Shown: piece after piece, positions 52,597 through 57,673 of the stretch
How the letters are laid out: each line of letters starts with the position of its first letter
Numbering within the stretch: the first letter of the stretch is position 1
Assembly (NCBI RefSeq): GCF_004564075.1
Contig: NZ_CP038256.1
Location: forward strand, 806,001 to 870,000
Length of the DNA: 64,000 nt
From: Microbacterium sediminis
GTDB taxonomy: Bacteria > Actinomycetota > Actinomycetes > Actinomycetales > Microbacteriaceae
Direction of reading: 5' to 3'
Position numbers and translations under genes: made by a program
The notes under the pieces: model-generated
Database searches by the model: none
What the model was told of the DNA's origin: nothing
The model's input: only the letters and a program-made list of their open reading frames with translations

Positions 52597-54501
52597 TCAG
52601 CTCGTCAGGGCGTGCTCGGCGAGGCGCCCCAGCGTGCGGATCCCGTCGCGCGAGAGGATCGACTCCAGGTGCCCCTGGATGCTCGCGAAGCGCGGTCCGC
52701 GCAGCGCGTAGACGTCGCCGGTGGTGGGATCGGCGGCGATCTCGGTCTCGCCGGTGCGCGTGGTGCCGGCCTCGACCCGCGCCGTGAAGGTGTTGTAGAA
52801 CCCGATCGCGGCGGGCTCGCCGAAGATGTCGACGGTCAGCTGCACGCCCTGGTGCGGGCTGTCCAGGGCGACCAGGTCGATGCCCGCGGCGTCGGCGAGG
52901 ATCTGGTGGCTCAGGCACACCGCCACCAGCGGCAGCGCGCGCTCGCGGCGGTGGGCCACCACCTGCCGCATGCGGGCGATGCGGGGGTTCGCTGCGTCGC
53001 GGGGGTCGCCCGGGCCGGGGCCCGAGACCACGAGCTCGGCGGCGTCGAGCTCGGCGTCGGTCACCTCGGACCAGTGCGCGATCCGCACCTCGAGGCCGAG
53101 GTGGCGCAGCTGGTGGGCGAGCATCGTCGTGAAGCGGTCCTCCGCGTCGACCACGAGCGCGGAGTGACCCGCGAGCGGCCCCGCGCCCGGCGCCTGTTCC
53201 TCCAGCCAGAACGGCGCGAGGCGCGCGTTGCGCGACGCAAGCAGCTGGGCGATGTCGGGGTCGTCGGCGAGCCGGCGCGGCACCGCGGGCGCGTCGTCGT
53301 CGGCGGCCTTCGCGGCGCGCGGCACGGCGCCGATCGCCCCGAGCACGCCGGCGGCCTTGCCGTGCGTCTCGCTCACCTCGCCGTACGGGTCGGAGTGGCG
53401 CACGAGCGTCGCCCCGACGGGCACCCGCAGGCGGCCGTGCTCGAGGTAGGCAGTGCGGATGAGGATCGGCGCGTCCAGGTCGTGTCCGCCGTCGGCGTCG
53501 GGGGTGAACAGCGCCGCCACTCCGGAGTAGTAGCCGCGCGGGGTGGCCTCATGACGGCGGATCACCGTGTAGGCGTTCTGCATCGGCGATCCCGTGACCG
53601 TCGGCGCGAACATCGTCTCGCGCAGGATCTCGCGCGGGTCCAGGCGCGACGTGCCGCGGAGCATGTACTCGGTGTGGGTGAGGCGCGACATCTCCTTGAG
53701 GTGCGGCCCGGTGATGCGCCCCCCGTCGCTGCAGACGGCGCTCATCATCTTGAGCTCCTCGTCGACGACCATGAAGAGCTCCTCGGTCTCCTTGGTGTCG
53801 CGCAGGAAGGCCGACAGCGTCTCGACCGTGGCGCCTCCCTGCGGGTGGCGGAACGTGCCGGAGATCGGGTTCATCGTCACGGTGCTCGACCCGTCGCCGT
53901 TGGCCGTCGCGACCACGTGCGCCTCGGGGCTCGCGCCGACGAGGAGGCGATCGCCCGCCACGATGAGGAACGTCCAGTAGGCCCCGCGCTCGTGCTCGAG
54001 CAGCGCGCGGAACCAGGTCAGCGCCGCCGTGCGCGCGTCGGCGTCGACGCCGGCCACGTAGTCGCGGCGGATGACGAAGTTCGCCCCCTCGCCGCGCCCG
54101 ATCTCGTCGGCGATGACGCGGCGCACGATCGCGGCGTACTCCTCGTCCGACAGATCGAAGCCCGCATCCGTGAGCGGAATGGTCGCGCTCGGCAGCGCCG
54201 CGAGCACCTCGTCGGCGCTCACGCGGCCGTGCTCGTCGACGAGGAGACAGCGCAGGGGAGTGCCGTCGTCCTCCGCCTCGAAGCCGCGCTCGCGCACCTG
54301 CCGGTACGGCACCAGGGCGAGCACCTCGCGCGGCGCGCCGTCCGGTCCGGTGAGCGGGATGTCGGCGAGCAGCTCGACATCGACGACCGGGCCGGTGAGG
54401 ATCTCGACCTCGCCGCCGTCGCGGGCGATGAGCGCGAACGACGCATCGGGGTCGCCCGCGAGGCGGAGGGTGCGCTCGGCGGTCGTGGGTGCTGCTTCCA
54501 T
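52597..54501 (-). CDS. Fused anthranilate/ADIC synthase (TrpE-TrpG, PhzE type)
   Basis: This 634-residue fusion of a chorismate-using domain (residues about 1-430) and a class I glutamine amidotransferase (about 440-634) makes anthranilate or 2-amino-2-deoxyisochorismate from chorismate and glutamine. The first part carries [40 protein letters not shown] and [17 protein letters not shown], which resemble PhzE more than classical TrpE. The amidotransferase has the nucleophile Cys529 in AVCLSHQ and a His/Glu pair in QGHLES. Upstream is a trp-type leader peptide with attenuator hairpins, which points to tryptophan supply. No other trp or phenazine core gene is in the window apart from a PhzF-like gene. 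Confidence 0.88.
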
Positions 54502-54544
54502 CAGGGGCTCACTTCGATGTGGGGCGGTCTTCCCGGAAAGCAGA

Positions 54545-54569
54545 ACGACCGCCTGCGGTGGGCGGTCGT
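54545..54569 (-). terminator. Attenuator terminator hairpin of the trp leader
   Basis: On the minus-strand RNA, ACGACCGCC and GGCGGTCGT form a perfect 9-bp stem with a 7-nt loop, followed by GTTCTGCTTTCC, a weak U-rich stretch. It lies between the leader peptide and the structural gene, as in attenuators. Confidence 0.75.
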
Positions 54570-54587
54570 CTCGTTGTGCGCGAATGC

Positions 54588-54606
54588 GGCCCGCCTCAGG
54601 CGAGCC
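54588..54606 (-). promoter_or_regulatory. Trp leader 1:2 hairpin spanning the leader stop codon
   Basis: GGCUCGCC and GGCGGGCC pair over 8 bp (one G-U) with the leader stop codon UGA as the loop. The 5' arm overlaps the last Trp codon. A ribosome stalled at the Trp codons would cover this arm and free GGCGG to pair with CCGCC of the terminator stem. Confidence 0.65.
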
Positions 54607-54631
54607 ACCACCAGTTCTGGGTCACGTGCAC
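54596..54631 (-). CDS. trpL: Trp operon leader peptide ([11 protein letters not shown])
   Basis: This 11-codon open frame carries three consecutive tryptophan codons just before its stop. It starts at GTG, 6 nt after a TACGGT -10 box, so the leader RNA is probably leaderless. A second in-frame GTG two codons on is possible. Downstream come two mutually exclusive hairpins and then the fused TrpE-TrpG gene, 95 nt beyond the leader stop codon. The arrangement is that of classical tryptophan attenuation: ribosome stalling when charged tRNA-Trp is scarce lets transcription proceed. Confidence 0.85.
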
Positions 54632-54637
54632 GAGGTC

Positions 54638-54643
54638 ACCGTA
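54638..54643 (-). promoter_or_regulatory. -10 box of trp leader
   Basis: TACGGT on the minus strand lies 6 nt before the GTG of the leader peptide. Confidence 0.55.
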
Positions 54644-54781: not shown

Positions 54782-55933
54782 GTGCCAGCTGTGAACCTCG
54801 GTATGCCTCGCGTCCCCGAAACCCTCGCTCCCCGCCGCAAGAGCCGGCAGATCCGCGTGGGCAAGGTGCTCGTCGGCGGCGACGCCCCCATCAGCGTGCA
54901 GTCGATGACGACGACGCCGACCACCGACATCAACGCGACCCTGCAGCAGATCGCCGAGCTCACGGCGTCGGGCTGCGAGATCGTGCGCGTGGCGGTTCCC
55001 AGCCAGGACGACGCCGATGTGCTGCACATCATCGCGAAGAAGTCGCAGATCCCCGTGATCGCCGACATCCACTTCCAGCCGAAGTACGTCTTCCAGGCGA
55101 TCGATGCGGGATGCGCCGGCGTGCGCGTGAACCCGGGCAACATCCGCAAGTTCGACGACCAGGTCGGCGCGATCGCCAAGGCGGCGCAGGCCGCCGGCGT
55201 CTCGCTGCGCATCGGCGTGAACGCCGGCTCGCTCGACCGCCGCCTGCTCGAGAAGTACGGCAAGGCCACCCCCGAGGCGCTCGTCGAGTCGGCCGTCTGG
55301 GAGGCGAGCCTGTTCGAGGAGCACGACTTCCACGACTTCAAGATCTCGGTCAAGCACAACGACCCGATCGTCATGGTCAAGGCGTACCGCATGCTCGCCG
55401 AGCGGGGCGACTGGCCGCTGCACCTCGGCGTCACCGAGGCCGGTCCCGCCTTCCAGGGCACGATCAAGAGCGCCACGGCGTTCGGCATCCTGCTGTCCGA
55501 GGGCATCGGCGACACGATCCGCGTCTCGCTGTCGGCCCCGCCGGCCGAGGAGGTCAAGGTCGGCCACCAGATCCTGCAGTCGCTGAACCTGCGCGAGCGC
55601 AAGCTCGAGATCGTCTCGTGCCCGTCGTGCGGCCGCGCCCAGGTGGACGTGTACTCGCTCGCCGAGAACGTGACCGAGGGTCTGAAGGATGTCACCGTGC
55701 CGCTGCGCGTGGCCGTGATGGGCTGCGTCGTGAACGGCCCGGGCGAGGCCCGCGAGGCCGACCTGGGCGTGGCCAGCGGCAACGGCAAGGGCCAGATCTT
55801 CGTCAAGGGCGAGGTCATCAAGACGGTGCCCGAGGCCGAGATCGTCGAGACCCTCATCCAGGAGGCCCGTCGCATCGCCGACGAGATGGGCCCCGACGCC
55901 GGCATCGGCACCGCCCAGGTCGTCACTGCCTGA
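54782..55933 (+). CDS. ispG: 4-hydroxy-3-methylbut-2-enyl-diphosphate synthase
   Basis: This iron-sulfur enzyme of the MEP pathway reduces MEcPP to HMBPP. The 383-residue protein is of the short bacterial type. Its cluster is held by Cys280 and Cys283 in [11 protein letters not shown] and Cys315 in [11 protein letters not shown]. The N-terminal barrel starts with [12 protein letters not shown] and carries [10 protein letters not shown]. The GTG at 54782 is preferred because TAGGCT lies 7 nt upstream; a longer open frame upstream is antisense to the trpE-G gene. A hairpin follows the stop codon and then a GNAT gene, as in the mycobacterial order. Confidence 0.95.
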
Positions 55934-56845: not shown

Positions 56846-57673
56846 TCAGAGTGTCAGCTCGCCGCGGATCGTCGTGAGCGTGTCGCCCGCGACCCACACG
56901 GTCTGGCCCTCGCGCGAGACGTGAACGCGGCCACGTCGCTGGAGGGCGGTCCCCTGGGAGGCGACATACGACGAGGGCAGCACGGAGCCGGCGAGCCACT
57001 GCCCGAGCGCGGCGTTCAGCGAGCCGGTGACGGGATCCTCGCCGAGGCCCATGTCGGGGCGGCAGAACGCCCGCACCTCGATGGCGCACTCCGAGCCGTC
57101 CGGGTACGCGCCCACGACGCCGACGTCGGCCGGCAGCGCCGCGAAGTCCGGCGTGAGGGCCAGCACGGCCCGCGCGTCCGCGAGCCGGATGCCGACCCAG
57201 CCCGGTCCGTTATCGCACCAGGCCGCGTCGACGATCGCGTCGCGGGCGATGCCGAGCGCCGCGGCGATCCCGGCGAGGAGCGGTTCCTCGACCGGTCCGG
57301 AGCGCCGCAGCGCGGGCGCGGCGAACGCGAGCCGCCCGCCCACCCGGCGCAGCAAGACGAGGCCGACGCCGCACTCCTGCACGATCTCCTCGCCCGCGGG
57401 CGCGCCCCCGGCCTCGAGCCAGGCGTGCGCGGAGCCGAGCGTGGGGTGGCCGGCGAAGGGCAGCTCGCCGCCGGGGGTGAAGATCCGCAGCCGGTAGTCC
57501 GCGGCGGGGTCGGTCGGGCGCAGCAGGAACGTCGTCTCGGACAGATTGGTCCAGCGGGCGAACGCGGCCATCTGCGCGTCGGTGAGATCGTCGGCGTCGT
57601 GCACGACCGCGACGGGGTTGCCGAGCAGCGGCTCGGGGCTGAACACGTCGACCTGGCGGAACGGGAGGCGCAT
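56846..57673 (-). CDS. PhzF family isomerase-like protein
   Basis: This 275-residue protein of the PhzF/diaminopimelate-epimerase fold has the catalytic glutamate in NLSETTFLL (around residue 46), the FTPGGELPFAGHPTLGSAH region and GEDPVTGSLNAALG. True PhzF isomerises DHHA in phenazine synthesis, but most family members in ordinary genomes have unknown substrates. The phenazine genes phzB, phzD and phzG are absent here, so a phenazine role is not supported despite the PhzE-like gene 2.3 kb away. GAGGGG lies directly before the ATG; a CACGCT stretch 6 nt upstream is a weak -10 candidate. Confidence 0.88.
   Translation of the reverse strand: MRLPFRQVDVFSPEPLLGNPVAVVHDADDLTDAQMAAFARWTNLSETTFLLRPTDPAADYRLRIFTPGGELPFAGHPTLGSAHAWLEAGGAPAGEEIVQECGVGLVLLRRVGGRLAFAAPALRRSGPVEEPLLAGIAAALGIARDAIVDAAWCDNGPGWVGIRLADARAVLALTPDFAALPADVGVVGAYPDGSECAIEVRAFCRPDMGLGEDPVTGSLNAALGQWLAGSVLPSSYVASQGTALQRRGRVHVSREGQTVWVAGDTLTTIRGELTL

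Follow-up and report, generated by a model that had tools for sequence, protein, structure and literature searches.

The fused anthranilate synthase gene trpEG of Microbacterium sediminis is very probably controlled by a ribosome-mediated attenuator acting on a leaderless transcript, and its product is most likely the only anthranilate synthase of the cell. The gene lies on the minus strand of the 64,000-nt stretch that we analyzed (positions 806,001 to 870,000 of contig NZ_CP038256.1; referred to here as the window). Its attenuator is real, conserved, and, to judge by its sequence, leaderless. This reading draws on direct observations: all parts of the switch are present, they are conserved, the leaders are in frame, the terminator, hairpin, and outer stem pair with their own partners specifically, and the genome has the rest of the Trp pathway, with trpEG as the sole TrpE, TrpG, or PabB detected in it.

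The TACGGT box, GTG-initiated leader, stop-codon hairpin, and 9-bp terminator reported by the first-pass annotation all lie on the minus strand and are correct to the single base (Table 1). Starting from GTG at 54631, the short leader ORF with its tandem Trp codons encodes 11 residues and precedes a Trp biosynthesis gene. The 8-bp core of the hairpin, which the fold extends to 10 bp, is formed by GGCTCGCC (54606-54599) and GGCGGGCC (54595-54588) on either side of TGA (54598-54596). The leader stop codon is thus the hairpin loop, a placement that lets a ribosome at the stop disrupt the 1:2 hairpin. Between leader and gene lies an intrinsic terminator with a perfect 9-bp stem, ACGACCGCC...GGCGGTCGT (54569-54561/54553-54545), a tenth G-U pair outside it, and a weak T run behind it (TCTGCTTT). 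The 94 nt from 54639 to 54546, beginning 8 nt before the inferred +1, fold at -46.1 kcal/mol, compared to -36.8 kcal/mol (sd 3.4) for shuffled sequences (z -2.76).

Table 1. Positions of the trpEG gene and of the elements in front of it (window coordinates)
Feature	Position	Strand	Evidence and remarks
-10 box TACGGT	54638..54643	-	Sequence; 6-nt spacer to leader GTG
Leader ORF, GTG CAC GTG ACC CAG AAC TGG TGG TGG CTC GCC TGA	54596..54631	-	Start codon is the inferred +1
Three tandem Trp codons	54605..54613	-	Sequence; Trp runs kept in relatives
Outer stem P0, 5' side, takes in the start codon	54622..54631	-	No-ribosome fold; partner-swap test over 108 leaders
Outer stem P0, 3' side	54576..54583	-	Folds; partner-swap test
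1:2 hairpin (P1), 5' arm	54599..54608	-	Folds; partner-swap test
1:2 hairpin, 3' arm (antiterminator region 2)	54586..54595	-	Folds; partner-swap test
Terminator, 5' arm (region 3)	54561..54570	-	Fold; covariation
Terminator, 3' arm (region 4), followed by weak T run	54544..54553	-	Sequence; fold; covariation
trpEG, fused anthranilate synthase of the PhzE-like family (Chorismate_bind + GATase, 634 aa)	52597..54501	-	ATG at 54501; domain, profile, and tree evidence

Conservation was assessed in 154 upstream regions of homologous loci (30 from the family search, 24 from the class search, 80 named, and 20 picked by place from the class search), which are not independent and include many from Microbacterium. 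A Trp leader was present in 140 of these loci. All but one of the 140 leaders carry 2 or 3 Trp codons, the remaining one (L030, RWPAS) having been admitted with a single W, and the closest relative, L080, keeps three (MRVTQSWWWLS). Leaders of Microbacteriaceae, and those of several other groups, frequently have a WWPAS-type C-terminus, next to WLA, WLTA, WTA, WHTA, WRAS, and more. The distance from stop codon to terminator is similar in most loci. No leader was found in the other 14 loci, which comprise L112 and L113, where hardly any sequence lies upstream; six loci of the PhzE clade described below (L166, L168-L171, and L178); L179, which has a long branch; and five loci outside that clade (L040, L150, L152, L172, and L175). 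Loss of the Trp codons or of stem pairing, which the first-pass annotation had named as speaking against its reading, was looked for: the leader is kept in every Microbacterium locus having upstream sequence; in the wider set, the last five loci show none.

The first-pass annotation had also noted that the product looks more like PhzE than TrpE, and this likeness holds. The trpEG protein, whose best named relatives are from Microbacterium spp. (M. halophytorum at the top, with 80% identity), aligned to PhzE of Burkholderia lata (3r74), a full-length relative of solved structure, over its full length with 559 bits and shares its fused architecture. TrpE models stayed far under their cut-offs (TIGR00564, 90.3 of 517.7 bits), and the domain scan did not find the N-terminal TrpE domain PF04715 in the trpEG protein. 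By contrast, PF04715 was present in all three canonical TrpE proteins scanned. The enzyme could be a true PhzE, i.e., an ADIC synthase of a phenazine-like or specialized pathway placed under a genuine attenuator, with anthranilate coming from elsewhere or from an ADIC lyase. The bit score to 3r74, the poor TrpE scores, and a gene of the broad PhzF isomerase family at 56846-57673 (minus strand), about 2.3 kb upstream of trpEG, all fit such an enzyme. Genome content, phylogeny, and two alignment columns nevertheless make it quite unlikely.

The M. sediminis genome (2.92 Mb) is 99.99% complete, and profile searches found no other TrpE, TrpG, or PabB in it, while trpD, trpC, trpB, trpA, and a bifunctional hisA-trpF are present. 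PF00425 matched at two places only, trpEG and a MenF-type isochorismate synthase. The seven GATase places are GuaA, CarA, PyrG, HisH, PurQ, a C26-type protein, and trpEG, and none of the other six is a TrpG or PabA. There is no trpE, nor room for one, between hisI and Trp_oprn_chp; among relatives, trpE adjoins Trp_oprn_chp in L046 and lies behind hisI and before trpC in L055. Apart from the PhzF-family gene, trpEG stands outside any phenazine-type or specialized cluster as judged on the scanned window ORFs, among which the neighbors named were Dxr, MurE, an M50 protease, GcpE, and a cation transporter. The GcpE-domain gene, ispG, is divergent from trpEG (about 54845-55867, plus strand). Given this gene content, trpEG is most likely the anthranilate synthase of the cell.

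The careful tree contained 57 rows; seven of the 64 rows of an earlier tree had been dropped as duplicates (L181, L184, and L137), as truncated and long (L163), or for a long branch (L179), together with L150 and L152, two rows lacking a leader that fell inside the leader-bearing group of the 64-row tree. PhzE of B. lata and ten other rows formed one clade (100/100), which excluded the M. sediminis protein, as well as all 41 leader-bearing rows, from Microbacterium and Streptomyces alike, and L040, L172, and L175, which have no leader. With a distant outgroup, PhzE came to lie nested among the leader-bearing rows, on a root that is unsure because it sits on very long branches. Two columns split the groups completely: L281 is L in 43/43 leader-bearing rows and I in 11/11 PhzE-clade rows, whereas P345 is P in 43/43 of the former and A, S, or T in 11/11 of the latter. 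PhzE also differs from trpEG in its surroundings. No WW leader was found within 700 nt upstream in any of the 10 PhzE-clade loci seen (B. lata not among them). Five of the six second copies viewed for context lie beside specialized-metabolism genes (isochorismatase, DAHP synthase, EPSP synthase, PhzG-like oxidase, and DHQ synthase II among the second-copy neighbors), the sixth, L181, showing nothing decisive. The conflict that the first-pass annotation saw between a PhzE-like protein and tryptophan control does not persist in the tree that it proposed: the protein groups with leader-bearing TrpEG, no other anthranilate synthase was found, and the PhzE-like score arises because PhzE is a relative of the fused TrpEG family. 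The enzyme puzzle thus largely dissolves. From genome content, phylogeny, and control, we infer that the enzyme would convert chorismate and glutamine to anthranilate, not to ADIC.

Within the family, a PhzE-like gene (E<1e-100) occurs in 31 of 249 genomes, and trpD in 244. With absence of canonical TrpE defined as a best TIGR00564 E above 1e-100, it is missing from 14/31 carriers compared to 16/218 noncarriers (Fisher p 4e-7, a value that ignores kinship and incomplete genomes). The 14 TrpE-less carriers belong to Microbacterium and four other genera. Eight of the 16 TrpE-less noncarriers fall in two genera (g21 and g74; L206 and L208 among them) that have another large chorismate enzyme in long frames. 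This enzyme passed the TrpE-clade3 cut-off in the two cases scanned, and the other six are presumed to be alike, which suggests that a TrpE-clade3 enzyme may offer a third way to anthranilate in one family. The prediction that the leader would occur only where canonical TrpE is absent proved wrong: 17 of the 31 carriers keep TrpE and have the leader, which is therefore no mark of a sole synthase. No Trp leader was found before canonical trpE in the 10 loci looked at. As a separate observation, neither PabB nor PabA was found in M. sediminis, which may need external p-aminobenzoate or folate or use TrpEG for this purpose, while a third match to the chorismate-binding domain occurs in three genomes of its genus.

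Pairing of the stems was examined by covariation and by partner swapping. On an alignment of 37 non-redundant leaders (A2), 94.6% of the terminator cells are paired, both partners have changed in 3 of its 9 pairs (a value reached in 2/500 shuffles), and 17 cells show such two-sided changes (reached in 0/500 shuffles). No covariation of the stop-codon hairpin or of the antiterminator was detected on the same 37 rows, their cores hardly varying. Compensatory changes, which the first-pass annotation proposed to test for in both stems, were therefore found in the terminator, whereas for the hairpin the support comes solely from the partner-swap test; together with the conserved Trp codons, the terminator changes back its reading of the element as a tryptophan attenuator. 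With kinship ignored in both tests, the hairpin scored 15.91 compared to 14.14 (sd 0.23) after swapping over 98 distinct segments of the 140 leaders, and the outer stem, tested on 108 of these leaders, scored 17.15 compared to 13.83 (sd 0.26). The 32 leaders missing from the latter set were filtered out because of the form or length of their terminators; each of the 15 viewed folds a hairpin behind the leader. In no-ribosome folds, the post-stop segment takes up four or more of the first 15 nt of the RNA in 106/108 leaders (63.2 expected when this segment is shuffled), and pairing involves at least one base of the start codon in 66/108. At the M. sediminis locus, the longest ungapped helix of P0 is only 5 bp. 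Terminator, stop-codon hairpin, and 5'-end stem thus show partner-specific pairing.

The antiterminator is a prediction of the folding. In M. sediminis, it would pair 54565-54561 with 54595-54591. We placed the edges of the ribosome footprint 15 nt away from the P-site. As long as region 4 has not yet been transcribed, the maximum pair probability is then 0.60 for a ribosome waiting at W7 or W8, 0.53 at W9, and 0.00 at the stop. Over the 108 leaders, pairs between regions 2 and 3 average 8.27 compared to 5.81 with region 2 shuffled, and the mean 2:3 energy lies below all 30 shuffle rounds, although, taken singly, only 20/108 leaders fall below every one of their 30 shuffled versions. Pair number and energy replaced a count of at least 4 pairs, which was unspecific (85/108 leaders pass with region 2 shuffled). 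At the stop position, 6/108 leaders keep at least 4 2:3 pairs in the best fold, and 57/108 have some 2:3 pair at a probability of at least 0.5. In M. sediminis, the terminator has a mean pair probability of 0.97 at equilibrium at every ribosome position and is favored in all states, so antitermination must be kinetic.

From these folds, the switch would operate as follows. Transcription probably begins with the first base of the leader GTG, and the ribosome would load on that 5' end. When Trp-tRNA is short, it would stall at the Trp codons and mask the 5' arm of the 1:2 hairpin, leaving region 2 to pair with region 3 before region 4 exists, and transcription would continue. When Trp is ample, a ribosome at the stop codon would cover region 2, and the terminator would form. 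If no ribosome is loaded, the outer stem and the hairpin are expected to form, and the terminator too. The leader could instead act at translation, via Rho, or by nascent-peptide arrest, not through alternative RNA hairpins. The frequency of WWPAS-type C-termini would suit a peptide signal, and the weak T run and the constant preference for the terminator at equilibrium are likewise in its favor, but the C-terminus varies while pairing with the post-stop segment is kept, the terminator covaries, and its spacing from the stop codon is held in most loci, all of which makes such a mode of action very improbable compared with the hairpin switch.

A TANNNT box, the promoter form described in PMC3898074, precedes the ATG or GTG at the inferred RNA start in 140/140 leaders, by 6 nt in 66, 7 nt in 72, and 8 nt in 2. 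The spacing of 6 to 7 nt is found for 138/140 leader starts compared to 6/4347 other start codons of the same regions. Start codons are ATG in 127 leaders and GTG in 13, with no TTG although TTG was allowed, in keeping with the leaderless RTG initiation reported in mycobacteria (PMC4633059). Box, start codon, and TGGTGG followed in this order in 138/154 regions in a frame-blind test; TGGTGG was in frame with the boxed start in 137 of these 138, and an intervening stop occurred in none. Leaderless transcripts make up 21% in Streptomyces coelicolor (PMC4895711). The first-pass annotation regarded it as unusual that the leader would begin with the first base of the RNA; this layout appears to be conserved in relatives and is not an oddity of one genome.

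Beyond these loci, the 249 family genomes were searched with R1, a covariance model built for the attenuator. The search returned 35 matches at E<=1e-5, 30 of which, some of them part of the model, lie just upstream of the PhzE-like gene (30/31 carriers). The other five (L247-L251), which were not in the model, all have a Trp leader with TANNNT at 6 to 7 nt. Four of them, L248-L251, are leaderless Trp leaders with terminators before trpB (above the TIGR00263 cut-off) in four other family genomes, and L247 is a leaderless leader, MHMTTAWWPTFSVG, with a terminator, before a gene outside the trpB matches. Three weak matches with E between 1e-5 and 0.01 (L252, L253, and L254) have no leader and were taken as chance. 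That the transcript starts farther upstream, the TANNNT match being incidental, is the least credible of the alternatives: an in-frame TTG does exist upstream of the leader GTG in M. sediminis, but the box spacing, the exclusive use of ATG and GTG, and the same layout in these five leaders from outside the model argue against it.

The only carrier without an R1 match at E<=1e-5 is G027, a 1.4-Mb genome without canonical TrpE. Its trpEG (L040) shows no attenuator and seems to begin right behind a TAGCAT box, and the structural gene itself thus looks leaderless; by eye, the region upstream resembles the start of the same ispG gene. Two other trpEG genes have disturbed frames: that of L036 (G224) matches in two frames, with the change near residue 553, and that of L037 (G148) contains one stop codon.

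Leifsonia xyli is a member of the Microbacteriaceae. Attenuators of mycobacterial Cys genes are said to have been tested at a later date, and the attenuator of Streptomyces venezuelae reportedly precedes a fused trpEG whose product is said to have been shown to be an anthranilate synthase and not an ADIC synthase. This last attenuator was studied by experiment (Lin, Paradkar, and Vining 1998, as cited in PMC1262725) and is, like ours, a trp attenuator in front of a gene for anthranilate synthase. In relatives from Streptomyces and Kitasatospora, leaders resembling MFAPQIQNWWWTAPPAAH stand upstream of this fused gene. The S. venezuelae attenuator belongs to another genus and family, and the M. 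sediminis leader is shorter with a different C-terminus. Classical attenuators have been predicted for the trp operons of Corynebacterium and Streptomyces (Seliverstov 2005, PMC1262725), with a double or triple UGG and a GC-rich terminator, as here, and with an antiterminator, which the folds predict for M. sediminis as well. The set of that study included L. xyli, yet trp attenuators are given for the two genera only, and the word "leaderless" is absent from its text. Leaderless Cys-rich upstream ORFs proposed as attenuators in mycobacteria (Shell 2015, PMC4633059) resemble our element as leaderless short ORFs rich in the end-product amino acid before a biosynthetic gene, but they concern cysteine, not tryptophan, and the mycobacterial cys leaders are described as having no obvious terminators (Seliverstov 2005, PMC1262725). 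The Rfam Trp_leader model RF00513 represents the same kind of element; it scored 32.3 bits (gathering, 41) on L017, of the same genus, gave no match in the M. sediminis region at E up to 1, leaving the gathering score unreached, and none on five further loci at E up to 0.1. Given the precedent in S. venezuelae, the attenuator is a variant of an already known kind. It is ordinary in kind; what is unusual is its leaderless build and the replacement of TrpE. In textbook attenuation, the leader peptide is assumed to have its own ribosome-binding site.

The very regular layout, which appears to dispense with such a site in 140 loci, offers a simple natural system for studying how leaderless initiation keeps up with RNA polymerase. 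A broader proposal, which we regard as rather doubtful, is that trpEG and some trpB genes of Actinomycetes share one obligately leaderless attenuator family working as one-shot timers, with PhzE derived from within or beside it by leader loss and a few changes in the chorismate-binding domain. In such a family, the start codon would be the 5' end of the RNA and its neighborhood would pair with the post-hairpin segment, so a ribosome would load only before that segment is made; if this were true, an RNA missing the loading time would be committed to termination. The two columns that split TrpEG from PhzE make the change from anthranilate to ADIC synthase directly testable. Finally, the data suggest that in Microbacterium and four other genera, the PhzE-like enzyme stands in where canonical TrpE is missing, and since it would replace the missing TrpE, labeling it PhzE would conceal a tryptophan gene that is essential.
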